Shown here one piece after another: positions 16,701 through 57,891 of a DNA stretch of 64,000 nt; positions within the stretch are counted from its first letter, which is position 1; each line of letters starts with the position of its first letter. A program made the translations under genes and the position numbers. The notes beneath the pieces are model-generated. The model was not told where the DNA came from, made no database searches, and saw only the letters and a list, made by a program, of their open reading frames with translations. The DNA comes from Blastobasis lacticolella (lineage: Eukaryota > Arthropoda > Insecta > Lepidoptera > Blastobasidae), in assembly GCA_905147135.1 (NCBI GenBank), contig LR990039.1, positions 34,779,708 to 34,843,707 on the forward strand. Reading direction: 5' to 3'.

Positions 16701-19611
16701 CGAAACGTGTGATTGAATTCCGCGTCATGGGTACCTACGTAACCCCATAAGAATGAGTTTGTCACCGCAGGCACCGAACTAGCTTAGCGCGAACCGAGAC
16801 TGGCTTATACCAAATCGGGGTGAGGATTTGGCGAGCTCGAGGCCAGGTGACTAAAGCGCGGAGCCCCGCGTGGGCGCTCGCCAGCTCGACACTATAAATT
16901 TCGTCGAACGCAAAAAGCATCGCGACGAATTAATTCGTCCTTTTATCCGGAGCGTGTAAGAACAAAAAAGTTGACGGACGCGCAAAAAATCAATCGCCAA
17001 GCGACGGTTGCGATTCAAAATACAATCGCTCGCGCGGTGTCACTGCGTCTGCTAGCTGCTTGCGCCTGCGCATCCACAGAGCCATTGTTTCCTCGTCGAT
17101 GATTAGCCGTTTAACTTTTTGCTGATACTTGCATTACGCCGCAATTTGCTTCGCGATTTGTGCCTCGGGCTATTAAGTTAGTCATTCCCGGAGACTAATC
17201 AACCTGCGACTGTGAGTCAGCGCGTACCCGCACACGCGTGACTGATGCCAATCTCAATATGAAACAAGACACCGAATTATGCCAGTTTATATCAATCATG
17301 GTTTTGACTCTGCGAGGTGATGATATTGATTGACATCGCCGCTGAAGTGGCTGTAATACGCGTTTTGATTGAATAGTTAAAGGTGACATGGCACTAAATG
17401 CGCGTAAATACCGGGTCGACATTGGTGGAGGAGCCCCTCGCACAAGCAAGGTATCTCGCGGTATCTATCTATCGTCTACCTGCTGAGCCCGCGGCCGCGG
17501 CCCGCGCAAACGCAGCAAAACAAGTAAAACGCGCGTGCGTGGGCGGGAGTCGAGGGCACGCCAAATATGGCGACAGCACCCGCGGTGAACAGTCCCATAG
17601 TAATACTAAACCACGGTTTCGTGAGTCCATAATAATAATACGATTTCGTTTTCCGCTCGACTTGGCCCGCGGAGATAAATAAAATGATCTCGACCTCAGG
17701 TAATACGATCGCGCGCCGTAATCGCGCCAGATTATCGACGAATTGACATTGACTCGTTGTTAGAACGGATCGCTACAGTGACACGGCAATGAATTATTTT
17801 AAAGCGGTGTACGTTACTGCGGATAGTGAACAGGCTCCCACGTAACATAACAGACCTCTTATTGGCTTGTTTGTCATCGATGACGTCGAAATGGCGCAAC
17901 GGATTTGTAATGAAATGAGGCAGTTTGAATCCTATGTGTATCACACTATTGGCACCTTGTAAAAACTAACGAGTAAAATGTAGCCTTACATGCGGTTGTC
18001 AGAGCTGCTAGTGAAGTTCTATTCAATTTATCTTATCTTTATGAAGTCGTGTCGGGCCCTAGAGACTAGCGGGGCTGTTTTGTATGTGACACGAGTATCT
18101 ACGTTATGCCACTTGATACTACGGTTGTCAAGACTAATACTTTTCGAGAAACATGTTACTGTAATGTGAGAAATTCGAAGTTACCCACTTATATATTAGA
18201 AAATTTGCTCGCTGGATTGGAAATTGTACCTGAAACTCGCCAGACATCATGTGCTGACATGGCAGCCTAAGACCAAATTCACTTCATCACGATTTAAACC
18301 ATAAACCGCTTCCGAACTAAAAGAACCATACTATTCAGATTCGCAGTAGGTATACTTCTGTCGTTGGATGTCGAAAAGATAAGCGTAAGCTAACCTTAAG
18401 CACCATCCCAAGAACATATGCAGCAGTTGATTATACGTTATAGTGATGTTACAGTTCAGTACATTCATTCGTTATCTGGGTGTAAACATGAGTAAAGCAT
18501 CCGTTCGATATTCTTTATCTCTCTATACGCTTACTAGTTACTAGATAGGTACTACCGCACCGGCACAAAGCTCTAAACATATTTTTGGCCTGACGGTAGG
18601 GGGGGGGGACCGTTTCTTGTCAGCTAAAATACGTAAAGCTTTGCGTAAAGCGTAAAAGCGTGAAGCCCACTTACGTAAGCATTGTTAAATTTTTTACAAA
18701 ATCTGTTACATTATTGTTATTTCTAGTCTATGATAATATGTTGCCAACGCAAACACTATTCAAGCCCCGCTGTCCCCTACGTCATAACCAAATCCCCTAT
18801 GGCAAAGTCAAGGCGCCTCCATCCCCTACATTGATTACCCTAGAGATCGCCAGGCCCCTACACCCGTTGACCATATTACCCGTTGGCCCGGCAGACACGA
18901 GGCCGCCAACCACCCGGACCTCGGCGTGCAGCTGGACGTGTTCGAGGAGCAGCGCGAGAGCGACGAGGCGCGCGGCCCCGGCGGAATCAACCTCAACTCG
19001 CACCTCGACGTGTTCTACGCCATACTGAAACAGGTGAGGCGACAGCTCTCGGGTCTCGCTTCGTTGCGCTCGGACGCCGGTTGAGATGGCTGTGGGAAAC
19101 CTACACAAGTCAAAACTTTGTAAGGAAGTGGGAGCCACGCACACAAGTTATGGATTAAGTTCCCTGGAAAGATTTCCTTGGAGAGTACAACATGGTGTTC
19201 TTCAAGAAAGGGGTGAAAAGGGGTGGGCAGCGCGAGGGTGTATGCAAACGTCCATAGACTGCTTACCGTCAGGCTGGTCGTAAACTTGTTTGCCACCTCA
19301 GTGGTACAAGAACATGCTAGATTATCCCACGGGCATGGATTTCCATAAAATCATCAGACAACTCCTTCCGTTGGGAGCTGCTAACAAACAATTTTCTTTC
19401 GTCGTTACCCGATGTCGTGCATCGTTGTCAGGTGGCGGACACACCGCAAGAGGTGCCCTTCCTGAGCATCCTGCAGCACCTGCTGCGGGTGGACCCCAAG
19501 GAGGCGGCCAGCGACATCGTCTGGGACACCGCCGAGACGCTCGTGCACCGCGCCACGCTGCTCGAGACGCGCGAGGATGCCGCCCGGTTGCTGAGGGCCC
19601 CCAGCGTGCAG
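13709..19611 (+). CDS. form3: Formin exons 1-6: FH3/armadillo-like inhibitory domain
   Basis: Six exons (109, 81, 160, 34, 139 and 180 nt) encode about residues 1-234 of the visible protein. Landmarks are GLDYIVEHAEYAGKL, VFELLSALCVYNADGY, LVAFINCLIISAPRLPDR, VRNEFIGLGLLPALSNL, LGVQLDVFEEQRESDEA and VPFLSILQHLLR. In diaphanous-related formins this region binds the C-terminal DAD and holds the protein inactive. Exon 4 (16638-16671) is a 34-nt micro-exon. The GTPase-binding part that normally precedes GLDYIV is missing, so at least one upstream exon lies outside the window or is unrecognised. Confidence 0.9.
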
Positions 19612-22600
19612 GTACCATGATGCGAAGAGACGTTCTAGTCACATCACACACGAACATTGACACTTATACAGGGTGTTACATAATATATGTATGAGGCCGT
19701 GAACCGGATGGAGTGCTAAATGTATGAAAACTATAGGTACAAAAATTCCACGTACGACAGAAATAATTAAATAAAATAAATAAATAAATTTATTTATTCA
19801 AATAAAATTAATCTAAAATTACAAGTTACTTAAAAATTACAACATACCTACTTATAGTAAATGGGTACAAATAAAATAAAGGCTACATATTTGCAACTCT
19901 TGCACAAATAATAATAGGTACTTAATTCTAGTTATTGATAGTTTGGACACCTAAACTAAGTAAATGATTTACTTGTATCTTAGGCATCCAGGTTAGTAGG
20001 TCTTAATATATAGGTTAATTCTTACATGTATTTTGTGTAACAATAAAGTGGTTAAATTGTATGAATAGGGTACAGTAGGATGAGTTTAAAGTACTAAAAC
20101 TTACGTACTATGTTTATAGTTAACCAACAACTCCCAGAATCTTCTCTGTCTCCTCGTAGGACTTACCTTTTAACCAATTCATGATAGTTAATTTGCAATT
20201 AAATTTATTCATAAGGTGGATACTTAGGTTGCGATTTAATTTGTTATAAGGATAAGTGCCAAAGAAACAGAAAAACCTGTGGGAGTGCTGTGTGCGGAAT
20301 AATTCATAGTTGCACACCATGTCCGCACGTCTATGACTGGTTTCGGGATTGAAGGGCACTAGGGAGTGTTTTTTTATAACCGTTTGCAAAATGAATAATT
20401 GACGAACTGAAAGAACGTCACATTCATGTAGCAATTGGGTCGTCGGATAGCGGAAGGGTCGGAAGGTACTAACTTTTAAGATAGCTCTCTGTGCTCTTTC
20501 CAAGTCAATAATAGTTGTTTTATGTGTGCCACCCCATGTTGTAATGCAGTATAGAAGTAAAGACTGGCACAGCGCAAGGTAAACGAATCTTCGTAAAGCC
20601 TCATTGGCAGCATGTCTAAGGTTTTTGAAGACGTATATTAGTTTACGCATTCTTGTAGTAAGGGCTTCAATATGCAACTTAAAATTTAAATGTTGGTCAA
20701 TAATTACGCCTAGATATGTCATTGACTTGGTAGAGCTAATTTTAGGACAGGAGCAAGCACTATTTTGTTTGAGCGGGTCGGTCGTTAGACAGGAATGAGC
20801 AACAATATTATACATGTTTACTGGAGGCTGGGTAGAGGAATTATAAGAGAAAGTCATGTACTTGGTCTTGTCGGTATTTAGTGTAAGTGCATTATTCTTG
20901 AGCCATCGGGATACTGAGTAGAAACCCTCTTGCGCTTGTCTGAAAACTTCGGTCCAACTATTGTCGCTAAAAAGTAGGGCAGTATCGTCAGCGTATGTAA
21001 TTATTCTACCATTAGTAAGAGGGAGTGAGCATAATTCGTTAACATAAATTAGGAACAATATCGGACCCATGATACTTCCTTGGGGAATACCGTATTCGGT
21101 GGGGAGTTCCTCGCTAATTATATTGTCAATAGAAACACGTTGAGTTCTATCAGTGAGATTGTCTTTTATCAGGCGATGGGGAAGCCCTCGTATTCCCTGG
21201 ATTTGAAGTTTGTCGAGAAGAATAGGGATTGTTACCGTGTCAAAAGCTTTGGCAAGGTCTAAAAAGATAGCTAAACACTTTTTTTGGGAGTCGAGTTGCC
21301 TCACAAGGTAATCAGTGAGATTGTCGACCGCGTCGTTAGTAGAACATCCTGATCGAAATCCATATTGCGACGATGCTAGTAGTTGATTACATTCCAAGTA
21401 TTGTACGAGTCTCTTGTAATTGTACCTATCGTTTTAATATGTTTAGTACTCCATCCAGTTCACGGCTTTATACATATATTATGTAACACTCTGTATAACG
21501 AATGACATTAATTATGAATTTTTGTTTCAATTTTGACATGTTTTTATATCAATTGTGTATTTTATATGTATAACAATTGTGTATCAATTTTGACATGATA
21601 CAATGATTACCAATAATTAAAAGTTGAACTTGAACTTTTCTGTTTAGAGAATTACCGTAGTCGCAAGTCCACGAATAACTAGGGCAAGTTGGGACTTTTT
21701 TGTAGAATTTTTTCGTGCTTCGTGCTTTTCAGAGTAGGAGTTTTAGCCTTTTAAATTTATTATCTCCCTTCGTCTCCAGGCCAAGATGGGCTGCACCTGC
21801 CAGCACCGCGACTCGGTGGTGGCCGGCCGCAAGCAGAGCCTGCAGCGCGCGCTGTCGCCGCCGCCGCCGCCCCCGCCGCCGGCCAGTGAGTTGAAACCAC
21901 AGAAACCTTTGGCATAAGTGTTACTTTCAGCTTTGCCACAGTCATTAATACGACTGACGGATCCTGTAAACTAAGCGTAGTCAGAAACACTGGAGAAAAC
22001 TTGCTAGAGAAACGCTATCGTAGTTCCTTTAGTAAACGCGCTAGATGTAAACTTCTTTAGGTGCAAAAGTTTTTGGAATGTCGAATAAAAAATTTCGCAA
22101 TTCAAGTACTCTTTGTTCGAGAACCCTTGATGGAGCCACACGCCTTGGCACAACCCTGACACAATCATAATCACACCACACTTCCCGCTTTCATTCTTTG
22201 AGTGTAGTCGTTCAGCGCGGCAACGAGCTCGCCACTCCTTTAATGCGGCTCCTAATACCGCTGGGGAAGCGGGGTTGACTAAGATTGAAACTTCGCTGGC
22301 GATCCTGACTCTCAGCCCGTGTCGGTGTATTGCTCTTCAAGCTTTAGCTGCTAAATTACACTTATACATGCTAATTTCAAGTACACGTGCATGCTTATGT
22401 CAAACTCCATTGTGAAAAAAGTATTCAGCATGCTAATAAAATAAACATACCGAAAACTAGCACGTGTATAACTAGTGTCATGTAAGAAGAGACTTGGCGG
22501 GTCACACCTGCGCGAAATCCCCTCCACTGCCATTTGACAAGTCTCTTCTTTCATAATATATAGAACTGGGGCTTTACTGTTGAATGCTCCCCCTTAGTGG

Positions 22601-25600
22601 CGACCTGAGTGGTTCAATGGTCAACATGGTCTGCCACACAAGAGGTCCCGGGTTCGATTCCCGGCCGGGCAGAAATTGAAATGTTGAATTTTAATTTCTG
22701 TTACGGGTCTGGGTGTTCTATGTATAATAAGTATCTATTTATAAAAAAAAAAAGGATGTAAGTAGTATATCAGTTATCTAGCGCCCATAGTACAAGCTTT
22801 GCTTAGTTTGGGGCTAGATGGCGCTGTGTGAATTTGTCCACGAATATTTATTTATTAATTATTTAGTGAGCGCCCCCCCGCCCCCTCCCGGGCGCACCCC
22901 CCCGCCGCCGCCGCCGGTGCCGCCGGTGCCGCCGCCGCCGGGCGCCGCGGCCCCCGCGCCTCCCGCGCCGCCCGCGCCCGCCCCCGACGTCAAGCTGCCC
23001 CAGCAGGAGACGCCCATACCGAAGACCAAGATGAAGACCATCAACTGGAACAAGATACCTAATAACAAAGTGAGCCACACATATTTATTTGTTTATTTAT
23101 TTGTTCATATTACACAGTTTTACAGCAGTTAAATATGCCAATGCCAATGACGAAACTGCATTTTAAAATTTTGATATGTAGCCACTAAGCAGCAGCAGCA
23201 GATGACAAACAAAAAGAACAATAAAAACATAGAACATAGATATCATAGAACATAGAACATAGTTATTTGTTGGGACGGCTGAATGTACAGTTTTTCTCAG
23301 GATGTTTTCCCTGACCTTTAGTTTCAACTCAGCGACATCGACATCCTACGTAAGCTAGCTTAATGTTCCCTTTATTTTCCCATTAATATCATATTGAATG
23401 TGTTTCTAGGTAATAGGGCGCAACAACATTTGGTCTCTAGTGGCGTCCAGCCACAAGCACTCCCCGAAGGCAGAGATGGACTGGAGCGAGATCGAGGGGC
23501 TGTTTTGTCAGCAGGTTCGTGCCGTTTATATTTACTTTTAAAAGTTTTCATTTTTACGAATGTGACATTACACTTCAGTTCACTTCAATGGATTTGTGCC
23601 AGTTTGGAGTACAACGTTAGTAGATAAAAAAATACTTACGTTGCAGTGTGTCAAAGTAATACTTAAGTGCAATCACATTGATGTAGTGTTATACTGACGT
23701 GTGTCGGTCGCAGGTGGCGCCCCCCGGGTCGGCGGGCTCGTCGCCGCGGCTGGGGCGCAGCGCGGCGGGCGAGGGCGGCGGCGGCGGCGGCGGCGGGGGC
23801 GGCGGGGGCGAGCGGCGCGCGCGCAAGGACAACGCCGAGATCACGCTGCTCGACGGGAAGCGCAGCCTCAACGTCAACATATTCCTCAAGCAGTTCCGCA
23901 GGTGAGCTGCAGCTTAGCTCCGATCGTACGACGCCATTTTGAGTTTAAACCAATCGCAACGAGACAGCTTTGGCTCTGGCGATTGATCCTCACTCGATTG
24001 CATCGAGATCGCGGCGTACTATTGTACTTGCCTTTTTTGTGTAGTAAATGATTTGATTTGAAAAATATTTTTTCATATTTGTTTTCAAAGTTACACAAAC
24101 GGGAAACAACCTACTCAGTCACACAAATTATTCAATAATTAGTGGTCCCCTACTCTTTCTTGCTTTCTTGCTCGTAAACCTTCCTCTTGAATCACTCTAT
24201 CTAATGTTGAAATATCATCTTAGCGTTGTGTCCCGGTTGTACTCTCGAGAACGAGCACCCAGCGTCCACCTTGACCATGATCCCAGATTTGGGCGATCAG
24301 GTAATTAAAGTGGAGCGAATACCATCTGACCTCCGTGACCTTGCTACCAGGGGAACCTGACCAGATTGGATCATGGTTACACATCCAGTGTGGCCGGAGC
24401 GGGATTCGAACCTGGGACCTTTGGCTTACGAGTCATGTACTCAAATCTCTTGGCCACCGACGATCCGCCTTAAATTTTTTTTAAATCAGTCAACATACTC
24501 TAGTGACCATGAGGTCACCCTATCTATTATTCAAACCCGTATTAAAATCACCAACGTATCCCCTCCCGCAGCTCGAACGAGGACACAATCACCTTCCTCT
24601 TGCATCACTGTATCTATTGTCGAAACCCGTATTAAACCACCAACGTATCCCCTCCCCCCCCCAGCTCTAACGCTGTATATGTTGTCAAAACCCGTATTAA
24701 AACCACCAACGTATACCCTCCCCCCAGCTCGAACGAGGACATAATCACCTTCCTCTTGCATCACTCTATCTATTGTCGAAACCTGTATTAAAACCTACGT
24801 ATCCACCTCCCCCCACCTCGAACGAGGACATAACACCTTCCTCTTGCATCACTGTATCTATTGTCGAAACCCGTATTAAAACCACCAACGTATCCACCTC
24901 CCCCCAGCTCGCACGAGGACATAGTCAACTTCCTCTTGCATCACTGTATCTGTTGTCGAAACCCGTATTAAACCACCAACGTATCCCCTCCCCCCCAGCT
25001 CTAACGAGGACATAATCACCTTGCCCTTGCATCACTGTATCTATTGCCGAAACCCGTATTAAAACCACCAACGTATCCTCTCCCCCCAGCTCGAACGAGG
25101 ACATAATCCAGCTGATAAGCGAGGGCCTGCACGAGGAGGTGGGCGCGGAGAAGCTGCGCGGGCTGCTGAAGACGCTGCCGGAGGTGGACGAGGCGGAGAT
25201 GCTGCGCGCGTTCGCCGGGGACGTGGGCAAGCTGGGCCGCGCCGAGCGGTTCCTGCTCAACCTCATACAGCTGCCCAAGTGAGTGCTGCACCTCGTATAG
25301 CTGCTCAAGTGAGTGCTGCGGTTCATACAGCTGCCCAAGTGAGTGCTGAACCTCGTATAGCTGCTCAAGTGAGTGCTGCGGTTCATACAGCTGCCCAAGT
25401 GAGTGCTGCACCTCGTATAGCTGCCCAAGTGAGTGCTGCGGTTCATACAGCTGCCCAAGTGAGTGCTGAACCTCGTATAGCTGCCCAAGTGAGTGCTGCG
25501 GTTCATACAGCTGCCCAAGTAAGTGCTGAACCTCATATAGATGCCAAAGTGAGTGCTGCGGTTCATACAGCTGCCCAAGTGAGTGCTGCATCTCATACAG

Positions 25601-28600
25601 CTGCCGAGAGAGTGGGGGTGGGGCTCCTGCTGCGGGTGATACGGCTGCCCAAGTGAGTGGGGGTCCAATTGGCGCCAGGACAATGAAGGCGCTGCTCCGC
25701 CGAGCAAAAGTTGTAAATTTCTATGTTGTCAACATGTATTCGGCATTATTTTTCCTTGGAGAGATGCTTCAAAACCTGGTCTCCACCAAACAACAGTTGA
25801 CAACTCATGTTGATGACAAAAAGTGCCAACTTATTTCAGTGGAGCGGCGCGCGGCGCCTTAACGCGAGTTTGAAATTCCACTAGATAGCAACAACGATTT
25901 CCGGTGAGAGATTTTCTCCATATCAACCCTATAGAAGGACCAGGGTGAGAGTAGGTAACCTGTATATTTTTTCGTAATTAAGTAATATTCTTTCGTGTAC
26001 TCCACGATTTTTATGAATATTAAATAAATATTAATAATTGAACAGATGAGTTACTATGACCGGAACTCCTACAATAGGTAGCAATGTACTATCGAACCAA
26101 CTGAATCGCGACCCACTGTGGGATCTTTACATAGTAACATATTGAAATGACCGTATTGCTTGGCAAGGCAAATCACTTGTCTTGATGACTTTGTTAAAAA
26201 GGTCTACAGTGGGTCACGGATTCAGTTGGTCGATTGTACTATGTAAGAATACCGGCGGAATAATATGTATATATTTATTTTATTTTATAGTATGGCATGG
26301 CACCCAAAACATAAGCTTTGCTTTGGCGGGCAACGCATTGGTGACTCCCCTGGTGTTGCTGATGTCCATAGGCGGCGGTGACCACTTTCCAACACTTTCA
26401 TAAAAATAAAAAAAACTATGTGGCTAGATGGCGCTGTCTTAATTGTCCAAGCATCTTATTTACTTATATGATTATTTGTGGTATCCCCCCAGCTACAAGC
26501 TGCGCATCGAATGCATGCTACTGAAGGAGGAGTGGGGCGCGACCGCGGGCTACCTCGAGAGCGCCATCAACGCCATCCTGGTCGCCGGGGACGACCTCAT
26601 CAACTCCAGGGCCATACAGGTCAGTGAGGCGCCACACCACTAGCCTAACTCATCCAGTCCACTGCAGGACTTAGGGCCACTCCCGCGAAAGGGGAGCTTG
26701 TTGCCATAATCTCCGCGCTTGACAGGCGGATTGGAGATCGCAGTGTTGTAAATGTAACAATGGAAAACGCTGCTGCCCATTTTCCAGACTACGGAGACTC
26801 TAGATCTTTTGCCTCGAAAACATTAGTCGCCTTGTACGACACCCGCGAGTGGAAGGGGTAATTATTATTTTATTTTATTTGGAACACCAACAGCTATCAA
26901 ACAACATGATATTAATATTCTTACGAAACAGAAAGCCAATTACATATCTCCGCTCGATTGCTAATAATTCTTTAATTTCAGTAATTTAATTTGTTCCGTT
27001 TTTTATTCCGTATGATCATATCATGGGTTCAGTTGCTAACGAAGTTCCATTGCTATAAATCTAAACTATTAAATCGATCATACGCAAAAGTAACGATTTC
27101 AATAATTGAAACCAGCCAATTGTTGGCAACACAGTTACGTTAGCCTACAGTAAAGCTGTACTATTGGTAAAATGAAGCTGTATTTATGTCTCTCGTTCAG
27201 ATATAAGTTGATGTGTGTGCATGGAGTACCAAACGAATGCTTTTCTATTCCATTCTAAATAAATCCCCTGTGAACGGTCGCGATCGCCAGGAGGTGTTGT
27301 ACCTGACGCTGATCGCGGGCAACTTCCTGAACGCGGGCGGGTACGCGGGCGGCGCGGCCGGCGTCAAGCTGTCCTCGCTGCAGAAGCTGTCCGACATCCG
27401 CGCCAACAAGCCGGGGGTCACCATGGTGCACTACGTCGCTATGGTACGCCGGGAGTGTTCACTTGCAATTGCAGTGGTGGACTAAAAATCGACTTGTCTG
27501 AGTTTGCTTGTATCGCATTTTTTGAAGAAAAAGTTGTGGACTGAATTTAGGATATTTAGGCGCTGTCCTATTTAGCAATAGTCGTACGACGGACGGCGCC
27601 CGACCAATAAGAGACCTCAAAACCGTGCGACCGTTGCCAATTAGGATAACGCCATATACTGTCCTTTTTTTTTAACAAATTATCGTTCGCCGTTCTTATT
27701 GGTTACAAGCCGGCGTTCACATCAACCACCAATCAATCCACGCCGTAAAAGCTGATTTAGCGTACTTAATTTGAATGAACCAACGAGAAACTCGTATTCA
27801 GCCTCAATACTTTATAGTTAAAAAAATTGAGTATAGAACATTATAATTAAATTTGCTAGCTTTTTTGTTTTTTTTTACTACCAAGGTGGGTAACAAGCTT
27901 ACAGCTTGCCTGATGGTAAGCAGTCACCGCAGCCTATGGACGTTTGCAACACCAGGGGCATCACCACCCACTTTTATTATTGATTGAGTTATTTTTCCAA
28001 AAGTCGGGCAAAACAAAAGTTTTGGTCCACCACTGTCATTCTCGAGGCTATCAGTATTTGCCACCTATATGCTACAACCGTGTGCCCCCACCGCAGCAAG
28101 CGGAGCGCAAGAACAAGGAGCTGGTGCACTTCGCGGACGAGACGCGAGCGCTCGAGGAGGCGGCCAAGGCGAGCGTGGAGCAGCTGCGCAACGAGATCCA
28201 GGGCTTGGACGCGCGCATCCGGCGGCTGCAGCGCGAGCTGGCCGCGCCCGCCACGCGGCAGGACCTCAAGGCGCAGATGGGGGACTTCCTGCAGGTACGC
28301 CGCACTGGGGACCTGGAGACTGGTTTATTTTACGGGGGATAAATAATTATAGGTCATTATAATTTAAATTTTTTTTATTTTATTTTACGGTGGATAAATA
28401 ATTATGGAAAAAAAATTTTTTTTTGTTATTTATTTCAGACAATGTCCATACACTTAGGTCCATAATAGGTACCTAATATATGAATAATAATGTCGTAATG
28501 TAAAATAAATGTCAAATAAAAAATAATAAAAAATTATATAATTTATTTCAGACATTGTCCATACACTTAGGTCAATAATAGGTAATATATGTATAATAAT

Positions 28601-31600
28601 GTGGTAATGTAAAATAAATGTCAAATTAAAAATGATCATAAAATAATTAAAAATACATAATGTCGAGTGAACTAAAAATTTAATCATTAGATAGAATAAA
28701 ATTGAAATGGAAATAAAAATAAATTTTAACATATATTATTATCAAAAATCATCTTGGCGTTAATGTCCCGGTTATGCTCTCGCGCACGAGGGCCCGGGGT
28801 CCGCCTTGACCATGATCCATGATCCATTTACCATAAATTATTATTGATTTGTAATCAATAATAGTAAATAAATTCATTCAATTTTATAGACAAAAATGCT
28901 TAACCACGTTATTTATGCTAGTCGTATTTTTGTCACCAGTATTGCGTAAAACATAATACGTCTTACTTATGTTTTTTTCAAATCTTAAATAAGTATTTAA
29001 GATTGACTAAAAAGTATATGTCGCTCCGCAGGCTAGACTACTAGACTGGCTGCTAAGCAAAGGAATCTCCTTGACATTATTTTTAATTAGAGACAATTAA
29101 GTCTATTTTTATTTAATAAGGAACTTGATCTTTTTAAAAAATAAAAATTGATTGAATTTTCAATCCATCGTGAAAACACCTTTACTAACTATTTTCTTAA
29201 CGCGAATGGCGTATAATGGCGGCGGAATGTTAGTCCCTTTCTAACCCCACGTTCAGAATAGCCATTGTCACTCATTCGTTTTACTCTAACCGTCGTTTCA
29301 CTATAATTGGTTGACGCATTCCGACCGGTTTCACTGTAACCGTCGTGTTACTTTCCGCGTCCGTCAGGTGGCGCAGCAGGAGGTGTCGGCGCTGGACAAG
29401 GACATGGACGAGGTGGAGAGCCTCCGGCGGCAGCTCGCCGAGTTCTTCTGCGAGGACCCCGTGTCCTTCAAGCTGGAGGAGTGCTTCAAGGTAACGACCA
29501 TCGTATAATGAAGTACCTACCTACTTAAGCTGGATCCACACGACACCAACTTGTGCTTGCACAGCGCGTTTGTACAAACGAAGTTTGCGCAAACGGATCG
29601 TGTAGACGTCAAATTTTAAATTAGAAAATTTTACGTTAACTTTTAAACTAGAAAATTTGAAGTCCGGCTTTACATTATATCTACGGTTTACCGTTAAGAT
29701 TAGTTTTCTTAAAAAATAACAGATGGCGCGATGAAAATTATCGATAGATATTGAAGTTTCCTATCGATTCCGATAAGTTTTGTGAGTGGCCGCAAAATCT
29801 TTATTTTTTAAAATGGCAGAATGTGTGTGGTGATTTTCTCTGTAGTAAATGTTCAATGATCTTTGAGAATCGTGGCATCCCATCGATATATTTCACCGTG
29901 ACTTGGCGGTTATGTGCCCGGTGTCTCGCCGGAGTAAGCCCTCGTGCGCGCTGATCGGTCTGCATGCGTCGCCCCTCTACCTGGATGAGCTCGCTTCACT
30001 TTCCCTTTGCTTTCTATTAGATTTTTGACGTTTGAAAAGGATTGATTAACATAATCCCAATTCAATCGGAAATGCGCTCGAAGATGCCGCGGCGCCAAGC
30101 ATTTTAAAATGTTTATAGATTTTATTTAACGTTACCTATGTAGGTAAGAGTTAAAAAGCGTTTATAAAAACCTCATCATCATCATAGCCCGTAACAGTCC
30201 ACTGCAGAACTTGGGCCTCTCCCACGAAAGGGGGGGTTATTGTCATAATCTCCACGCTCGGCAGGCGGGTTGGAGATCGCAGTGTTTAAATATAACAATG
30301 GATAATGCTGCTGCCCATTTTCCAGCCTACGGAGACTCTTGATCTTTTACCTCGAAAACATTAGTCGCTTCGTACGACACCCACGAGTGTAAGGGGTTGG
30401 TGCTATTCTACTCTGCCGGACGCAACACGGCCAAAAACCAATGTAAAAACTTAATTAAAAAAAAAAACTTTATTTAAATTTAATTATTTATTTTAGTATG
30501 ACCTAAGGTCTAAATCGATTTTTTAATATTAATTGACATTATAATTTTATTGACATTTGAATAATTATTGACACTATCTACTGTTGACTATTGAATAGGT
30601 AAAAATAAATTTTATAATAATGTTTTTGTAATACTTAAAATAAATAATTTTAAAACATTTGTTAATAATGATCTATTTGATTAATGACAAAATCTATATG
30701 CCGATGGCAGGTCGCAGAGGCTCCATTCTACCTAAACTGTACCCACTAACTGTATAACCTGTATACCACAAATGAATAAATGATTACAATTATGATTGTG
30801 ACCTATAATTTCCACTTGCGTGTGCGCAGATATTCGCGTCGTTCTGCGCCAAGTTCCGCGCGGCGGTGGGCGACAACGAGCGGCGGCGAGCGCTCGAGGA
30901 GCAGGCGGCCGCGCGCCGCCGCGCCCGGGAACACCACCACGGGAAGGCCAGGGCCGGTATGTGCACACGGGATCCCGATGTTATGCATTACTGTATGCAT
31001 AAGTTGTTTAAATTGATAGCGCCTTAGCTTTTTTATGAAATTTTATTTTATTAGGAAAACTTACAGCCTAATTAAGTTACATTAAATTGGTGGATAAATG
31101 GGTAACACACAACCTTTTAGAAGTTTTCACCAGTAGGTATGAAAATACAGTGGCATTGTTTCAAAACGTAAATACAAATTCTAGCCGTAAACGATTCAGT
31201 AAACGTGAACGAAAGTGGTCACCGCCGCCTATGGATATCAGCAATACAAGGAGCGCTACCAATGCGTTGCCAGCCTCGACGAGACCTCTAACATACCTCT
31301 TGAACGATCCCATGTCAAAAGGAAACATGTGGCTGGGAGCTCATGCCACATCCGAATGGTACGAGCGAGAAACGTTCTTTCGAACCTTGGCGTGGACGCC
31401 AACAAACACAACGAATAAACAAACTACTAAATAAAAAATAACTGGTCCAACGTTGAGCTTTATTGCAGTAACGTGTGTGGGTTAATGACAAAAAATGCAA
31501 AGAAGCCTCCAACCCGGTTACCCGGGTGCATAACAGTTCATTGAATTGAGCGATGTAGCCTTTGTTTCATCCGGATATCGTGTCATGATTTCTAAAAACA

Positions 31601-34600
31601 AACTAACGACGTCTTGCACCGAATTCTTAAACGTATTTTCGCTGATACTTAAACAAACTTCATAAAAAAAAACGCTTTACGTAATTTTTGCGATGAGCAG
31701 TTTTCCAGTAGGTATTGTCAATTGGTTTCAAAAAGCATCAATAGATGGCGCTCCTACAATCTTGGTAATTTTTTAACAAAAGGTTCAACGAAAATATTTT
31801 AATACAAACCTTTCATATTATCTGGGATTTGTATTGCGTCCATTCTTGATCCTAGTATCCATAAAACGAATTGACTCAGTCAAATTGATGTTTGTTTTGT
31901 TTGTAATAATTTAATACAACCTCTAAAATGGTTAAAAACTATTGATAAATACAATATTATCCAAGACAACGTACCCGGTGTATAAATCCTCTTTGCTAAG
32001 AACATATTTCAAGCGATTATCATTTACCAAAATAGTCGGGGCGCCATCTAGGGAGTGGTTAGGAATGCTTTTAGATAACTATTATTGAAACTTAGGAAAA
32101 CTGCTCATTGTTTAAAAATTTGGTGCAAGCTGAGTTAACCTATTTCTTATCTTATCCTATTGGTTCCACAACCCATTTTCGTTGCTCACACTCTACGATG
32201 TTTGCCTCTGTCGGCGGTCCAGCCGGCAGCGTGGGCAGCACCCCCGCGTCGGAGTGCGAGTCGCTGATGGAGTCGCTGCTGCTGGACATCCGGCACGGGC
32301 TCGGCCGCCGCTCGCTGCGGCGCGCGCACGACCCCTCGCCCTCGCCAGGTAACTATGGGCTCTGGGTGCGCCGGCGTAGGGTCCAAGTTCGCTTGCACGG
32401 GATAAGGCGACGAGGGCGATGTTTCTTTAAAAATTTATTCTGTCAATTCCACTTGATTTTAATTATATCAATGTCTGATTACCATTAGACAGGCAACCTT
32501 ATATGCCACGGTGGTAACATAGAATATACTTTTTTTTTTCAGTACAATAGAAGTAGGAAATTATGCCAAAACTGATAAACCATTTTCTGGCGTAAATGTA
32601 TAGAACAATGGGCGCTTACGCGAATCAATATTCCAAAAGGGGGCGCCACTTGTTCCTGAGGTCCTGTCTTTTTTATGGTACTCAGTCAAAATACGTCGTG
32701 CTATACTTGCTTAGAAGTTAAAGTTAAGTTAAGTTGGGTTCAAAGTTGAAAGTTGAATTGAAGATATTGGCTAACATCAAGACCCATCACCATGGGACAT
32801 CAGCTCTCATAGTAAATGCAATGAAATTCCACGGCGTCAGAACGCGTGTATGGCGTGTAATGATATGGTCTCACGCGTCACATCATCACAAGCATCACTC
32901 GGACCACAGACATTTGCATAGACATAGACAAATCCGCATACACGTGTCGCATCACTCGCGTCACATGGCACCACGTGGCGTAGGTCTAGTGTGGCTCTAA
33001 TGTAAGGTCGTGTATCATGCCATGACATCCCTGTAACCGCTCCGTTGTGTCGGCAGACGTGACCCCGACAGGCAGCCTGCGGCGGCGCGGGCGCGCGTCT
33101 CCCGGGGAGCCGGGCGAGGAGGGGCTGCTGGAGTTCCTGCGGCACGCCTCGCCCGCCGCCAACGACCTGCGCGAGCGCAGCGCCTGGGGCAGCCTCGGTA
33201 CGCCACCACCGATCATTATTTTTTATCAGCTCTACTAAACTAGACACAAATTGACCTCTTTTCCAATTCTCTTGGTGGCTACAAAAAGTTTATTTATGAT
33301 TTTTTTATAGTTCAAGTTGCTTTGTTTGACATTGTTTAATTTTTAGTTTATACTAAATTCCTTTTTCTTTATTTATTTTGTTTTAAATGAAACTGAACGA
33401 GAATGTTGGGTCACCAATATGGGACTCGTATTAGAATAACTTTATGTAACAATATGTGTATGGACCACTGCATCACTATGCTGATATTTACGATAGTTTT
33501 CAGCTGTAACATCTGGTATTGGTGTTAACAGTGGAAGTGTTAAAAAATACGTAATCCGAATCTCAACCCCCCTCTCCACCCTCAGACCGTTCGTGGTCGC
33601 GCCGCGGGGCGTCGCGTGCACGTCTCGAGATCCCGGAGCGCGAGCGTGCGCCGCCCTCCCCCGCGCCGCCCTCCCCCTCCCCCGCACCCTCCCCCTCCCC
33701 CGCGCCCTCCCCTGCCCCTGCGCCGCACCCGCAGCCGACGCACGTGCACCCCGCTCACGTGCCGGCCGAAGCGCCAAAGCCCAAGTAAGTGTTGGCAGGG
33801 AGTTTGTAATGACTAAAGTGCTTACTTACTCCATATGGTTCATTCAAATTTATATGACGATGACAGGCCATGGGTTCTTTTTGGACACATCCGTCTGATT
33901 TCGTCAATTCGTGTTTTTTTTTTCACGATTTGGCGAGAGAAACCACGAGATGGCGCCACTGAGACGTGAGGTCTGCTGTCAAATTAAAACAATGTTATTG
34001 GCACAAATGATTTTTTCAACTTACAGCAGATGATTCTCTCATATAACACCTTACAGTTTCGTATAATGAATTAGAAGTGACCCGTGTATGTGTCCTGGCA
34101 GGGAGTGGCGCCAGAAGATCGAGTCGTGGCTGCGCGCCAACAGCGCGGAGGAGGCGCGCGACGCCGAGCTGCGCGAGCGGGCGCGCCGCCTGCAGGCCAA
34201 CCGCCGCTCCTTGGAGAACGACTCCGGTCAGTACGCACCCCCGCCCGCCGGCAGCGCGGAGCGGCCGCGCCGCCTGCAGGCCAACCGCCGCTCCTTGGAG
34301 AACGACTCCGGTCAGTACGCACCCCCGCCCGCCGGCAGCGCGGAGCGGCCGCGCCGCCTGCAGGCCAACCGCCGCTCCTTGGAGAACGACTCCGGTCAGT
34401 ACGCACCCCCGCCCGCCGGCAGCGCGGAGCGGCCGCGCCGCCTGCAGGCCAACCGCCGCTCCTTGGAGAACGACTCCGGTCAGTACGCACCCCCGCCCGC
34501 CGGCAGCGCGGAGCGGCCGCGCCGCCTGCAGGCCAACCGCCGCTCCTTGGAGAACGACTCCGGTCAGTACGCACCCCCGCCCGCCGGCAGCGCGGAGCGG

Positions 34601-37600
34601 CCGCGCCGCCTGCAGGCCAACCGCCGCTCCTTGGAGAACGACTCCGGTCAGTACGCACCCCCGCCCGCCGGCAGCGCGGAGCGGCCGCGCCGCCTGCAGG
34701 CCAACCGCCGCTCCTTGGAGAACGACTCCGGTCAGTACGCACCCCCGCCCGCCGGCAGCGCGGAGCGGCCGCGCCGCCTGCAGGCCAACCGCCGCTCCTT
34801 GGAGAACGACTCCGGTCAGTACGCACCCCCGCCCGCCGGCAGCGCGGAGCGGCCGCGCCGCCTGCAGGCCAACCGCCGCTCCTTGGAGAACGACTCCGGT
34901 CAGTACGCACCCCCGCCCGCCGGCAGCGCGGAGCGGCCGCGCCGCCTGCAGGCCAACCGCCGCTCCTTGGAGAACGACTCCGGTCAGTACGCACCCCCGC
35001 CCGCCGGCAGCGCGGAGCGGCCGCGCCGCCTGCAGGCCAACCGCCGCTCCTTGGAGAACGACTCCGGTCAGTACGCACCCCCGCCCGCCGGCAGCGCGGA
35101 GCGGCCGCGCCGCCTGCAGGCCAACCGCCGCTCCTTGGAGAACGACTCCGGTCAGTACGCACCCCCGCCCGCCGGCAGCGCGGAGCGGCCGCGCCGCCTG
35201 CAGGCCAACCGCCGCTCCTTGGAGAACGACTCCGGTCAGTACGCACCCCCGCCCGCCGGCAGCGCGGAGCGGCCGCGCCGCCTGCAGGCCAACCGCCGCT
35301 CCTTGGAGAACGACTCCGGTCAGTACGCACCCCCGCCCGCCGGCAGCGCGGAGCGGCCGCGCCGCCTGCAGGCCAACCGCCGCTCCTTGGAGAACGACTC
35401 CGGTCAGTACGCACCCCCGCCCGCCGGCAGCGCGGAGCGGCCGCGCCGCCTGCAGGCCAACCGCCGCTCCTTGGAGAACGACTCCGGTCAGTACGCACCC
35501 CCGCCCGCCGGCAGCGCGGAGCGGCCGCGCCGCCTGCAGGCCAACCGCCGCTCCTTGGAGAACGACTCCGGTCAGTACGCACCCCCGCCCGCCGGCAGCG
35601 CGGAGCGGCCGCGCCGCCTGCAGGCCAACCGCCGCTCCTTGGAGAACGACTCCGGTCAGTACGCACCCCCGCCCGCCGGCAGCGCGGAGCGGCCGCGCCG
35701 CCTGCAGGCCAACCGCCGCTCCTTGGAGAACGACTCCGGTCAGTACGCACCCCCGCCCGCCGGCAGCGCGGAGCGGCCGCGCCGCCTGCAGGCCAACCGC
35801 CGCTCCTTGGAGAACGACTCCGGTCAGTACGCACCCCCGCCCGCCGGCAGCGCGGAGCGGCCGCGCCGCCTGCAGGCCAACCGCCGCTCCTTGGAGAACG
35901 ACTCCGGTCAGTACGCACCCCCGCCCGCCGGCAGCGCGGAGCGGCCGCGCCGCCTGCAGGCCAACCGCCGCTCCTTGGAGAACGACTCCGGTCAGTACGC
36001 ACCCCCGCCCGCCGGCAGCGCGGAGCGGCCGCGCCGCCTGCAGGCCAACCGCCGCTCCTTGGAGAACGACTCCGGTCCATACACGCGGAACCTGGAATGA
36101 GCTCAACCAGAGGGGCTGTTAGCTATCTGTCTTATCGGGCTCTTTTATCAGGTGGTAGTAGGACTTAAATAGAGGTATTGGTTAAAAAACAGATTCGTCA
36201 TTTTATAGCAGTTATCAGTCAGTAGTCATTAGGATAAATTATTTATTTATTTTATTTGCCAACGGGAACAGATTCCTTAACAAGGTCACTAAATGATGTT
36301 GTACGATATTTTTGTTTTCCTGTGGATAAGCGACATTTTTTTTTAACCAAGCGACAGAGTTCGTTTGTTGTAACCGCATGCGTGTCTGTTGCAGAGAGCG
36401 AGCGCAGCACGACGCTGGACACGCTGGCGGAGACCCGCGGCGAGTGGCGGCCAGCGGTGCTGCCCGACAGCGACGTCGTGCGAGCGCTCGAGACCGTCGA
36501 GGGTGAGCATCCGCGACGCCGGCTTGCGTTGCTACGACTACTACGAGGCGGTATGCTTATATCTTTTTTTATTGCATTCCAGACGTGCAACCCCAGACGA
36601 AAGACAATCGGGTCCCGTGGAGAAACAGCGAGGAGAACGAGGAGATGCGGCGGCTGCGGCGGCAGCGCTCGCGGCCGCAGGTGGAGATCGCGCCCGCGCT
36701 GCACTCCATCTGCGAGGAGGAGCGCCGGCGGCAGCCCGGCCCCGCCCCGGCCCCGGCCCCCGGCCCGGCCCCGGCGGCCCCCGCGGCCCCCGCGCGCGCC
36801 GACATCGACGCCGACAACGTGGAGACCCCGCCCGCGGCGCGCCGCCAGTTGCAACCGCCGCCGGAGCGCGAGCCCTGCCGCCGGCTGCAGGCCTCGCTGG
36901 CCACCGCCGACCGCGCCACCGCCGACATGCGCGACCTCTGCCAGGAGATCCTCGGCGACGGCCAGTTCGACCGGTTCTCGGCTGCGCGACGCACGCGCCG
37001 CTACAAGCGAGCCGCCGACGCCGCCGCCGACCTCCCCGCGCCCGCCGCGCCCGCCGAGCTGCTCGCCGACACGCAGCTGGTGCGGCCCACGCAGCTCGCC
37101 GTCACCGCCTCCTACCCCCTCCCCGCGCCGCAGCCCGCGCGGGCCGAGCCCCCGCCCGCGCCCTCCCCCTCCGTCGCCCCCGCCCCCGCCCCCGCGCCCG
37201 CCCCCACCAGCGCCGGCGACGACCGCAAGGACGAGAAGGAGAACCGGCTGAAGCGGTGGCAGGACAGACTCAAAAACCAAAGCACGGACCGAACACCGAC
37301 CAAAGACAGCAAGGCGCACCCCTACTCGCGGATGCGGCGGCAGACCTCGATCAACCAGGAGGACGTGCAGAAGGCGATCCGCGAGCTCAAGTCCCCGACG
37401 GAGACGCCGGCGGCGGTGTGGTCGCGCGGCGGCCGGCGGCCCGCGGCGGCCCCGGCGGCCCCGGCCCCGGCCCCGGCGCGGCCCGCCGAGCGCGCCGGCT
37501 CCCCGCGCATCCCCAAGGCCCGGAGCGAGCACGAGCTCAACGACGAAGGCTTCGAGGAGACGCAGAGCCTCAACTCGGAGAGCGCCTCGCAGGGCGCGTC

Positions 37601-38111
37601 CTCCGGCTGCCCCGCGGAGTGCGACTCGCCTCCGCCAAAGCCCGCCCGGCCGCCGGAGCCGCGCCGGCCCGCGCCGCGCGACAGGCCGGCGGCGCCCTCG
37701 CGGCCCTCCGCCCCCGCCACGCCCGGCGTGCGGCGAGCGGGGTCGGCGCGGGGGGCCGCCGCGGGGGCGGGGGCGCTGCGCGTGGAGCGGTCGGCGTCGC
37801 GCGCGTCGCTGCGCAGCTCCCGCAGCTCGCTGAACAGCGCGGCGTCGGTGGCGACGGTGCGGCGCGCGCCGGCGCAGCCCCGGCCAGTGCCGCGGCCGTC
37901 GCCGTCGCCGGCGCCCCCGGCGGCGCGGGGCTCGCTGCGCGCGCCCGCCAGCCGGTCGTCGTCGAGCGGCAGCTCGGTGGGCGCGGCGCGGCCCCCGCAG
38001 CGGCCCGCGCAGCGCACCTCGGGCTTCATGCGCCCCACGCAGGCCTCCAAGGGCCGCGGCGCCTCCGCCGCGCCGCCCGCGCCCGCGCCCGCGCGCGCCG
38101 CCGTCAAGTAG
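13709..38111 (+). CDS. form3: INF2/Form3-type formin, 22 exons, 5' incomplete
   Basis: Formins nucleate and elongate unbranched actin filaments; INF2 also severs and depolymerises them. Exons with consistent phases: 13709-13817, 14444-14524, 15444-15603, 16638-16671, 18895-19033, 19432-19611, 21780-21885, 22867-23069, 23410-23514, 23714-23901, 25090-25278, 26493-26619, 27291-27443, 28097-28294, 29368-29490, 30830-30956, 32223-32348, 33057-33197, 33586-33784, 34102-34226 (or later), 36395-36502 and 36583-38111. All borders are GT-AG and the joined frame is open (1482 aa with the shortest exon 20). Order is FH3, FH1, FH2, WH2/DAD, basic Pro/Ala/Arg tail. FH3 wording such as GLDYIVEHAEYAGKL and FH2 wording such as YKLRIECMLL fit INF2/Form3 better than Dia, DAAM or FHOD. 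The first exon opens mid-domain with a split codon, so its ATG at 13716 is probably internal. Splice models are inferred, not transcript-based. Confidence 0.92.
14158..14240 (+). mobile_element. SINE fragment in a formin intron
   Basis: GGAAACCTGCACATTCAGGC and CTGAATGTAACCATGATCCA match the body of the 6348-6717 SINE. Both ends are missing. Confidence 0.55.
15668..15778. mobile_element. MITE copy A (related to 39222-39303)
   Basis: The ends AAATTGTAATTGGATCGCAG and the reverse complement of CTACAATTACGATCCAATTA form ~30-bp imperfect inverted repeats. Internal 'gtagcagaataccaaaaa' matches copy B in reverse. It lies in the intron after formin exon 3. Confidence 0.65.
19665..21497. mobile_element. 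TA-flanked inverted-repeat DNA transposon hosting a LINE
   Basis: CAGGGTGTTACATAATATAT at 19669 onwards pairs with the reverse complement ending at 21493 over about 75 bp, with only scattered mismatches. TA lies just outside each end, as for Tc1/mariner-type elements. Between the arms is a - strand LINE (RT at 20120-21397), so the LINE appears to have inserted into an older MITE-like element. The whole lies in the formin intron after exon 6. Confidence 0.78.
20120..21397 (-). mobile_element. Non-LTR retrotransposon reverse transcriptase, 5'-truncated
   Basis: A 425-aa frame encodes QYGFRSGCSTNDAVDNL, FLDLAKAFDTV, YGIPQGSIMGPILFLIYVNE, then catalytic YADD in IITYADDTALLF, then thumb and C-terminal regions ending at TAG near 20120. 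This order is RT of a Jockey/CR1-like LINE. Endonuclease and ORF1 are absent. The sequence continues in frame upstream to about 21440 (KRLVQYLECNQLL). The open frame without stops suggests a fairly recent copy. An AAATA-rich tail lies at 19765-19805. Confidence 0.88.
21780..23069 (+). CDS. form3: Formin exons 7-8: FH1 proline-rich region and FH2 start
   Basis: Exon 7 (21780-21885) runs from AKMGCTCQHRDSVVAG to an eight-proline run. Exon 8 (22867-23069) continues with APPPPPGRTPPPPPP and ends in the FH2 entry KTKMKTINWNKIPNNK. FH1 prolines recruit profilin-actin. The junction joins A to TG, giving a methionine. Exon 8's acceptor lies at the end of a SINE tail and lacks a normal pyrimidine tract. 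Exon 8 ends AAA|GTGAGC. Confidence 0.9.
22600..22862 (+). mobile_element. tRNA-derived SINE inserted at the FH1-exon splice acceptor
   Basis: The head GCGACCTGAGTGG with B-box GGTTCGATTCC, the middle GGTGTTCTATGTATAATAAG, and the end GGGGCTAGATGG followed by a TTTATTTATTAATT tail are the order seen in a common lepidopteran SINE. TTAGTG flanks it at 22594-22599 and 22863-22868. The upstream copy follows a CTCCCCC tract, as a normal acceptor would; the downstream copy is the one next to the FH1 exon. The 5' head is tRNA-like but its acceptor stem does not pair, so it is not a tRNA gene. Confidence 0.8.
23410..30956 (+). CDS. form3: Formin exons 9-16: FH2 domain
   Basis: Eight exons complete the actin-binding FH2 dimer domain (about residues 318-745). 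Landmarks in order are NNIWSLVASS, MDWSEIEGLFCQQ, a poly-glycine insert, ITLLDGKRSLNVNIFLKQFR, EDIIQLISEGL, ERFLLNLIQLPNYKLRIECM, EVLYLTLIAGNFLNAGGYAG, KLSSLQKLSDIRANKP, MVHYVAM, then a helical charged stretch and FFCEDPVSFKLEECFK. KSLNVNIFLKQF-like and GNFLNxG motifs are FH2 hallmarks. Phases match throughout: 23901 ends phase 2, 25278 phase 2, and 30956 phase 1. The exon 25090-25278 lies between two splice-site repeat arrays. Confidence 0.93.
24222..24468 (-). mobile_element. tRNA-derived SINE copy in a formin intron
   Basis: Reverse-strand copy of the 6348-6717 SINE: it begins TTAGCGTTGTGTCCCGG, passes CTGACCTCCGTGACC and GATTGGATCATGGTTACACA, and ends with the tRNA-like head (GGATTCGAACC and CTTGGCCACCGACG on the + strand). 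It lies just upstream of the acceptor repeat array. Confidence 0.8.
24505..25109 (+). repeat. ~91-bp tandem array repeating a splice acceptor and exon start (7 copies)
   Basis: Each unit carries TATTAAAACCACCAACGTAT, a C-rich tract, AG, then CTCGAACGAGGACATAATC, which is the first 19 bases of the real exon at 25090. The AG (or its remnant) ends at 24571, 24664, 24727, 24816 (mutated to AC), 24907, 24998 and 25089. Steps are 93, 63, 89, 91, 91 and 91 bases. Using any upstream AG would read into an in-frame TAA within the unit (at CCCGTATTAA), so they act as decoys rather than useful sites. Confidence 0.9.
25262..25660 (+). repeat. 30-bp tandem array repeating a splice donor (12 intact copies)
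   Basis: The exon end CATACAGCTGCCCAA|GTGAGT and following bases repeat every 30 bp from 25262 to about 25590: 11 donor-bearing units, a degraded one, then a twelfth donor near 25650. Adjacent units alternate in a 60-bp higher-order pattern (CATACAG/GTATAG). Only the first donor (exon end 25278) keeps the FH2 frame. Reading through it meets TGA at once, because the donor reads AAG TGA in frame. Confidence 0.92.
26280..26480. repeat. Old retroposon remnants before formin exon 12
   Basis: 26325-26400 contains reverse-strand words of the 11850-12130 family. 26423-26475 carries GGCTAGATGGCGCTGT and TTGTCCAAGCATCTTATTTA, matching the end of the SINE at 22600-22862. It stops about 20 bases before the acceptor of the exon at 26493. 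Confidence 0.55.
26651..26862 (-). repeat. (GATG)-family interspersed repeat, reverse copy
   Basis: Starts CAGTCCACTGCAGGACTTAG and ends near GACACCCGCGAGTGG; a close relative of 30175-30430. It lies in the intron after exon 12. Confidence 0.7.
27885..27965. repeat. Decayed interspersed repeat in a formin intron
   Basis: Carries CCTGATGGTAAGCAGTCACC, GCAGCCTATGGACGTTTGCA and CACCAGGGGCATCACC, the reverse of the words at 51610-51710. It lies about 130 bases upstream of exon 14. Confidence 0.55.
28427..28634 (+). repeat. Two-copy tandem duplication (~113 bp) in a formin intron
   Basis: TTTATTTCAGACAATGTCCA...CTTAGGTCC at 28429 recurs as TTTATTTCAGACATTGTCCA...CTTAGGTCA at 28543, and both continue into AATGTAAAATAAATGTCAAA. 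Both copies contain an acceptor-like TTTATTTCAG. A SINE remnant follows at 28750-28822. Confidence 0.75.
28748..28822 (-). mobile_element. SINE fragment
   Basis: ATCTTGGCGTTAATGTCCCG and GCCCGGGGTCCGCCTTGACC match the reverse strand of the 6348-6717 SINE. The head is lost. Confidence 0.65.
30175..30430 (-). repeat. (GATG)-family interspersed repeat, nearly full reverse copy
   Basis: Begins CATCATCATCATAGCCCGTA (reverse of the GATG tail) and ends GGTGCTATTCTACTCTGCCG. It is one of the longest copies in the window and useful as a family reference. Confidence 0.75.
30513..30685 (+). repeat. Repeat copy shared with 46908-47100
   Basis: GATTTTTTAATATTAATTGA, CACTATCTACTGTTGAC, TTGAATAGGTAAA and AATGTTTTTGTAATACTTAA occur in the same order at both loci, and words like these also occur near 50150-50260. 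It is probably a retrotransposon 3' UTR. Confidence 0.65.
32223..32348 (+). CDS. form3: Formin exon 17: WH2/DAD-like autoinhibitory motif
   Basis: The exon encodes ECESLMESLLLDIRHGLGRR followed by a basic SLRR stretch, at about residues 755-782. The pattern (acidic, amphipathic L-L-x-x-I-R-x-G, then basic) matches the C-terminal WH2/DAD of INF2, which binds actin monomers and the FH3 region. The acceptor is GGTCCAG|CC and the donor CCAG|GTAACT; phases 1 to 1 fit the neighbours. Confidence 0.82.
33057..33784 (+). CDS. form3: Formin exons 18-19: post-DAD linker
   Basis: Exon 18 (33057-33197) encodes DVTPTGSLRRRGRASPGEP then GLLEFLRHASPAANDLRERS. Exon 19 (33586-33784) begins DRSWSRRGASRARLEIPERE and continues into a Pro/Ser/Ala low-complexity run ending EAPKPK. 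No domain is recognised. Phases fit on both sides (1 in, 2 out). Confidence 0.85.
34102..36100 (+). CDS. form3: Formin exon 20 with 84-bp VNTR carrying its donor
   Basis: The exon starts after TGTCCTGGCAG with EWRQKIESWLRANSAEEARD. It can end at GACTCCG|GTCAGT (34226) or at the same donor in 21 later copies (every 84 bases to 35990); the last copy has GTCCAT instead (36074). Because 84 is a multiple of three and the unit has no stop, each extra copy would add RRLQANRRSLENDSG plus QYAPPPAGSAERP. If no donor is used the frame stops at TGA 36098-36100, giving a formin without the last ~545 residues. Every donor joins exon 21 in the same phase. Confidence 0.8.
34184..36076 (+). repeat. 84-bp tandem repeat, 23 copies
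   Basis: CGCCGCCTGCAGGCCAACCG recurs every 84 bp from 34184 to 36032: 22 full periods plus a last partial copy. By eye the copies are identical except at the two ends. Each unit contains exon sequence, the GTCAGT donor, the first intron bases and a GCGGCCGC site. The join GGCAGCGCGGAG resembles the exon's own AACAGCGCGGAG, suggesting the unit arose by slippage within this exon. Confidence 0.95.
36395..36502 (+). CDS. form3: Formin exon 21
   Basis: It begins ESERSTTLDTLAETRGEW and ends VVRALETVE, with donor GAGG|GTGAGC. The 80-nt intron after it is the shortest in the gene. Confidence 0.85.
36583..38111 (+). CDS. form3: Formin terminal exon (508 aa), low-complexity basic tail
   Basis: The exon opens after TTGCATTCCAG with DVQPQTKDNRVPW and ends at TAG 38109-38111. 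It is very GC-rich and dominated by Pro, Ala, Arg and Ser. More ordered islands are EEMRRLRRQRSRPQVEIAPA, ADMRDLCQEILGDGQFDRF, DEKENRLKRWQDRLKNQ, and RRQTSINQEDVQKAIREL with a basophilic-kinase-like RRQTS. The end GFMRPTQASKGRG may be a short conserved motif. Large open frames on both strands here are composition artefacts; this frame is the one that splices. Confidence 0.85.
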
Positions 38112-55362: not shown

Positions 55363-55435
55363 ATTACATATTATTTCGTTTATTGTCTGCGCTTTGTGAT
55401 AAACTAACATACTTAAGTAATCTCAAATATTTATA

Positions 55436-57630: not shown

Positions 57631-57891
57631 GGAAATTAATACGGCGGCTGATAAAAATATCCCTATTATTAAGGTGCCTGATAGTCCAACGTCAAAGTTT
57701 AATCCCAAACCCTACTGGTCTCCATATCTTTCCAGATTAGTAGCTTTGAGTAGGCTAGCTCTATAACAATTTAGAAAGAACTCTACGCCCGATAACTTAA
57801 AGTTATTGGAAGATAGGGTTAAGGAGGCTAAAGAAAGTATAAAGAAAGCTTCTATCATTAGCTGGCGTGGGCGTTTTAATAATATAGATGA

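Follow-up and report, generated by a model that had tools for sequence, protein, structure and literature searches.

Tandem arrays straddling predicted splice junctions of an inverted-formin gene in the moth Blastobasis lacticolella, with 22 identical donor sites at one exon end

Tandem repeats lying across splice junctions are known from amphioxus, where two reports describe 'mirage' minisatellites that span exon-intron boundaries at either exon end and carry splice signals in many of their copies (PMC3087553). These repeats affect Adh3, the globin genes BflGb6 and BflGb9, troponin C and PGBD5; they are unstable in length, and reverse transcription PCR (RT-PCR) is reported to show that regular splicing is not disturbed (PMC3087553; PMC3902484). 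The Rogers model, as cited in the same source, derives intron gain from the tandem duplication of AG|GT segments (PMC3087553). Outside cephalochordates, searches of open-licence literature yielded no clear report of junction-straddling repeats; the nearest lead is provided by earthworm metallothionein genes, in which exon duplications are absent from the transcript and repeats of minisatellite length occur in introns (PMC12783039). Here, we describe an 84-bp tandem array at the 3′ end of a conserved exon of a formin gene of the moth Blastobasis lacticolella, located in a stretch of 64,000 nucleotides that was analysed as a whole and is called the window (assembly GCA_905147135.1, contig LR990039.1, positions 34,779,708 to 34,843,707 of the forward strand). 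We consider it likely, with a probability of roughly 0.7, that this array is a mirage-type minisatellite, the first donor of which would mainly be used while most of the array would be removed as intron.

The exon concerned is the sixteenth of 18 in the single-open reading frame (ORF) model of the gene (34102..34226, plus strand; EWRQKIESW...RRSLENDS). It is 125 nt long, has phase 1 and ends in CTCCG|GTCAGT. Tandem Repeats Finder (TRF) places the array at 34162..36077 (plus strand) with 22.8 copies and 99% match, and self-comparison at a lag of 84 showed identity over 1812 consecutive bases (34182-35993), which corresponds to a perfect repeat from 34182 to 36077. The sequence GACTCCGGTCAGT occurs 22 times at a spacing of always exactly 84 bp, the 22 registered units are identical letter for letter, and GACTCCG|GTCAGT is present in each of them. 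The resulting 22 GTCAGT donors (34227..35996, plus strand) would end the exon at 34226 + 84k with k = 0-21, the final exon end being 35990. An earlier, sequence-only reading of this DNA had claimed the same GTCAGT donor at a constant phase in each of 22 copies, which the exact spacing and the identity of the units bear out. The degenerate last copy, the 23rd (36068..36100, plus strand), continues after its exon part with GTCCAT in place of GTCAGT, a site scoring 2.7, followed by an in-frame TGA at 36098-36100. That the unit is a multiple of three without stops proved right (84 = 3 x 28, open in the frame of the exon up to this TGA), and so did the claim that the downstream frame is kept, as the exon following the array (36395..36502, plus strand; SERSTTLDTLAETRGEW...) is in frame with each of the 22 donors. 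The proposed range of 0 to 22 added blocks, on the other hand, was too wide; 22 donors give 0 to 21, corresponding to up to 588 aa.

A gapped alignment revealed that the unit combines about 65 nt from the end of exon 34102-34226 with about 19 nt of post-donor sequence. Over 66 alignment columns, the exon part shows 2 mismatches and 2 one-base gaps that offset each other, and its reading frame is retained. A diagnostic base at 34181 (plus strand), 45 nt before the exon end, is G upstream of donor 1 and C in the later copies. This alignment supersedes a division of the unit into 45 nt of exon and 39 nt of intron, giving 65 + 19 instead. An ungapped match of the same part with exon sequence lying further upstream was equalled by 34 of 2000 shuffles and set aside. 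When 221 bases of the array were used to search the 577-Mb assembly at E <= 0.001, the array itself was the sole match, hit by at least 11 overlapping matches; a dispersed element as the source of the unit was discarded, as nothing besides the array matched genome-wide at this threshold.

The formin gene extends over 18891..38111 on the plus strand, with its stop codon at 38109-38111. It was modelled by joining exons by their splice signals, all junctions being predicted, and the 18 exons modelled within the window form a single clean ORF of 1355 aa when the first donor of the array is taken. Pfam detects FH2 (PF02181) in the modelled protein with an E-value of 1.5e-78, as well as a partial-domain match to Drf_FH3 that, for the in-window exons, stays below threshold (26 bits, cut-off 27). 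The best solved relatives in the PDB are inverted formin-2 structures. Among 605 homologs, lepidopteran formins head those listed, many bearing the name inverted formin-2, and the best 37 of 120 listed homologs comprise 33 from Lepidoptera and four others that group among those in the tree. By its sequence, the gene belongs to the form3/INF2-type inverted formins of insects. Exon 34102-34226 is conserved in lepidopteran orthologs, with weaker conservation in beetles and flies. The gene shares with insect form3/INF2-type formins the FH2 domain, a partial FH3 match below threshold and the conserved tail exon, and differs from them by arrays at three splice junctions and by an unusually G+C-rich coding sequence. 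The G+C content at third codon positions (GC3) of its coding exons reaches 0.948 compared with an intron G+C of 0.393, with a sharp fall at the junctions, and the G+A+R+P fraction of the protein is 0.439 compared with at most 0.322 in 37 orthologs. For the neighbouring minus-strand gene, three longer pieces have a GC3 of 0.59-0.76. In the formin intron between exons 19432-19611 and 21780-21885, a minus-strand ORF of 437 aa (20120-21433) resembles, by eye, a reverse transcriptase of the LINE type. The sequence-only reading had placed the array in the tail exon of a formin, in agreement with the FH2 match and the inverted formin-2 homologs. It missed two sister arrays in the same gene and the recurrence of such repeats in other moths.

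Both sister arrays flank exon 7 of 18 (25090..25278, plus strand), which belongs to the FH2 domain and is bordered by extra acceptors upstream and extra donors downstream. Sister array 1 (24520..25108, plus strand) has a unit of about 91 bp consisting of the 3′ end of the intron (e.g. CCTCCCCCCAG) and 19 nt from the start of exon 7; TRF reports it from 24673 to 25108, while the earlier copies were found by eye and in a separate analysis. The array offers six acceptors with an intact CAG, with exon starts at 24572, 24665, 24728, 24908 and 24999 and the exon's own start at 25090, and all five upstream acceptors lead to an in-frame stop. Sister array 2 (25260..25605, plus strand) has a 30-bp unit with a 60-bp higher order and combines the last 17-20 nt of exon 7 with GTGAGTGCTG. 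Counting the exon's own site, AAGTRAGTG occurs twelve times, with eleven occurrences spaced 30 bp apart between 25277 and 25577 and a further one at 25651, past the end reported by TRF. A transcript read beyond the first donor would hit an in-frame TGA (25280-25282), which overlaps this donor. The copies of the sister arrays are partly diverged. Because distal sites lead to stops on both sides of exon 7, a working protein requires the choice of the exon-proximal sites.

To compare all junctions in the same way, the 24 junction nucleotides of each of the 34 modelled junctions were matched against 900 nt of the neighbouring intron. Close copies were found at three junctions (identity 0.96-1.0), while the other 31 reached at most 0.58. 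We also compared array frequencies, counting arrays with a period of at least 20, at least 2.5 copies and a TRF score of at least 100. Twenty 10-kb stretches of the genome (200 kb) held four, the best of which scored 368 and was truncated at the border of its stretch. In the 64-kb window there were also four, three of them within the 19.2-kb gene with scores of 602, 691 and 3802. At the sampled rate, 0.38 arrays would be expected in the gene, and the probability of at least three is 0.007, or 0.06 at the upper 95% rate. Random placement of 91-, 30- and 84-bp units in the gene put all three across junctions with P ~4e-4, or 1.3e-3 when the 60-bp unit was used for sister array 2; these chance tests were devised after the arrays had been seen, which weighs against the 4e-4 estimate as support for the mirage reading. 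A 44-bp array at 45023-45141 (2.7 copies, 78% match) lies upstream of the minus-strand gene and away from known junctions.

The three arrays agree with the amphioxus mirages in being tandem repeats that straddle a boundary at a donor or an acceptor and carry splice signals, and the 84-bp array also shares their homogeneous core and divergent edges. The repeat unit spans the modelled boundary at 34226 as well as those at 25090 and 25278, so that an acceptor (25090) and two donors (25278 and 34226) are involved. The copies carry 22 GTCAGT, twelve GTGAGT/GTAAGT and six CAG acceptor signals, and at 34226 the homogenised core is bordered by diverging copies, namely the last one with GTCCAT and the exon's own. 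The differences are a matter of degree and of setting. BflGb6 is reported to have 3 or 6 units that are 81-100% identical, compared with 22 letter-identical copies in the moth, and the moth arrays occur at three junctions of one gene, include an 84-bp unit that is in frame and open, and have repeats in orthologs. Some of the amphioxus cases are described as backed by RT-PCR and haplotypes, whereas the moth array is described from the sequence of one haplotype. As in the Rogers model, the duplication carries splice signals, the moth unit holding a donor and an acceptor-like site, but the intron is present beside the array and there is no sign that the array made a new one. The passages on earthworm metallothionein genes, for their part, do not describe a repeat straddling a splice junction (PMC12783039).

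Coding variable number tandem repeats (VNTRs) of the mucin type are homogeneous minisatellites with a length of 3n that are open in frame. The 84-bp unit resembles them in all three respects, yet it is part exon and part post-donor sequence, and its translation is not required. Since the unit includes the donor and the sequence behind it, whether the array is a coding VNTR hinges on donor choice. The open frame was rejected as evidence for coding, because stops are missing from five of the unit's six frames at a G+C content of 77%; a period divisible by three occurs by chance in one case out of three.

Repeats were also found in the formins of other moths, for which the data are predicted proteins (cluster representatives) with exon ends carried over from the model of the window. 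Of 37 proteins, two lack exon 34102-34226; in 34 of the remaining 35 it occurs once, and in Ostrinia nubilalis P0004 it is in tandem, with a 34-aa copy at the exon junction (ERREAELRERARRLQAHRRSLENDS then GNNTTLYQQ) that is absent from Ostrinia furnacalis P0012. In Scirpophaga incertulas P0121, a 43-aa block is repeated seven times at the same junction (LQAHRRSLEHDS then GQSPPPPGHSSSTSLSACLRPGQEEQRDAEL), followed by three more copies resembling the same DNA in another frame. As the block can be read in two frames, we infer that the Scirpophaga donor is also GTCAGT. The extra residues differ among the species of the window, O. nubilalis and Scirpophaga, suggesting separate origins. At a different junction, a 37-aa block stands in about nine copies in Anticarsia gemmatalis P0002; the block ends at the exon end and is continued by VRTN, which is what a GTACGC-type donor would read. 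The predicted formins of Scirpophaga and Anticarsia are probably gene models that ran through junction arrays. Plutella P0001 and Ostrinia P0004 contain the exon end APSVQ in several copies with varied linkers, some of which could equally result from duplicated exons having been spliced together; this repetition is absent from Plutella P0033. Overall, internal repeats at the set threshold were present in 16 of 181 scanned proteins, comprising these four moths, eleven non-lepidopteran insects that share a single tail repeat, and a beetle with different repeats. The counts are minimum values, because arrays modelled as intron leave no trace in proteins.

A mirage-type origin can be outlined as follows. 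A tandem duplication across an exon-intron junction would place an extra donor in the intron, while the exon-proximal donor would still yield the old mRNA, making such a duplication nearly neutral. Slippage or unequal exchange could then expand and homogenise the copies. Selection would purge duplications lying wholly within exons, since they alter the protein; this would account for the position of arrays with exon sequence across junctions. First-donor use is predicted by analogy with amphioxus and from exon length, as the exon measures 125 nt with the first donor and 1889 nt with the last, while the remaining 15 internal exons of the modelled gene measure 105-203 nt. Exon-proximal choice is also the simplest reading, and in sister arrays 1 and 2 the proximal sites are the only ones that escape stops. 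Variation of the copy number between alleles is expected, and minor use of donors 2-22 is possible, which would add 28-aa blocks in frame, from 28 to 588 aa in total.

Besides the after-the-fact design of the chance tests, several observations weigh against this interpretation. First-donor use is carried over from the amphioxus mirages, and the array at 34226, unlike its sisters, is a multiple of three and open. By hand count, G or C makes up 14 of the 19 bases that follow the donor in the unit, while the initial 20 nt average 55% G+C in 15 other introns of the gene; owing to this difference, the post-donor part may not be the original intron start. The repeats of other moths come from predicted proteins with transferred exon ends, as stated above, and those of O. 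nubilalis, Anticarsia and Scirpophaga read through copies beyond the first donor, although gene predictors should hardly be able to tell identical donors apart. Finally, splicing may take place inside the array, from a donor to the next unit's CTGCAG, producing micro-exons. With matrices that are crude, being built from the gene's own few sites, this acceptor-like CTGCAG scores 10.6-11.1, compared with at most 9.2 for the 17 modelled acceptors. The resulting 53-nt introns and 31-nt exons, however, would break the frame, and no branch point is evident.

Among the other explanations, an unlikely one is that distal donors are often used, so that the formin tail would consist of modular 28-aa blocks (GQYAPPPAGSAERPRRLQANRRSLENDS) varying in number by allele and by splicing. 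The constant phase and open frame of the unit fit this idea, as does the retention of the exon's frame over about 65 nt despite two indels, which compensate each other. The same junction is, moreover, traversed in the predicted proteins of O. nubilalis and S. incertulas, and another one in Anticarsia. Against this stand the five of six unit frames that are open regardless, and the in-frame cases among predicted proteins are an effect of ascertainment. A gene predictor faced with 22 identical donors should hardly be able to assign the one used. The three further Scirpophaga copies, apparently in another frame, argue against a translated array, and the 1889-nt exon would be nine times as long as the largest other internal exon (203 nt).

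It is quite improbable that the extra donors serve as decoys or buffers that bind U1 snRNP and adjust how the gene is spliced or expressed, in which case the choice of a distal donor would cause decay or yield a short form ending at TGA 36098. The GTCAGT donors do score in the middle range on the crude matrices (8.1-8.2, ninth of the gene's 17 donors, which range from 4.3 to 11.2), an acceptor-like site accompanies each of the 22, and every tested non-proximal choice in sister arrays 1 and 2 results in a stop. There is, however, no sign of selection on copy number, and two of the three arrays contain diverged copies. RNA folds were no better than those of dinucleotide shuffles for the unit (z 0.62), for 150 nt comprising nearly two units (-0.07) and for the exon (-0.31), and RNA structure that masks donors was rejected on this basis.

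An assembly artefact hiding a true locus with one or few units might be suspected from the perfect identity of all 22 units, but is highly improbable, given an assembly of 45 contigs for 577 Mb, diverged copies in the sister arrays that assembly error would not produce, and analogous arrays implied by the predicted proteins of other moths.

In Lepidoptera, form3 might be a hotspot of junction minisatellites, where one tail-exon donor was hit in three or more lineages and, among these, sometimes became a copy-variable, in-frame coding module lengthening the tail; we regard this reading as doubtful. The gene with its three arrays, together with relatives carrying different arrays at one junction, provides a natural setting for testing how, within one transcript, the spliceosome selects from as many as 22 identical donors. 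The system also bears on the growth of introns and exon ends and on why certain exon ends are prone to arrays. It further serves as a warning that gene models across such arrays, e.g. those of the Anticarsia and Scirpophaga formins, may be wrong.

Elsewhere in the window, a multi-exon gene on the minus strand at about 40280-44400 resembles, by eye, the insect EcKinase/CHK-kinase family. The stretches 55421-61386 and 58919-60055 hold pieces of retroelements with zinc-knuckle, endonuclease and reverse-transcriptase-like frames and a minus-strand remnant of a mariner-like transposase, all likewise recognised by eye.

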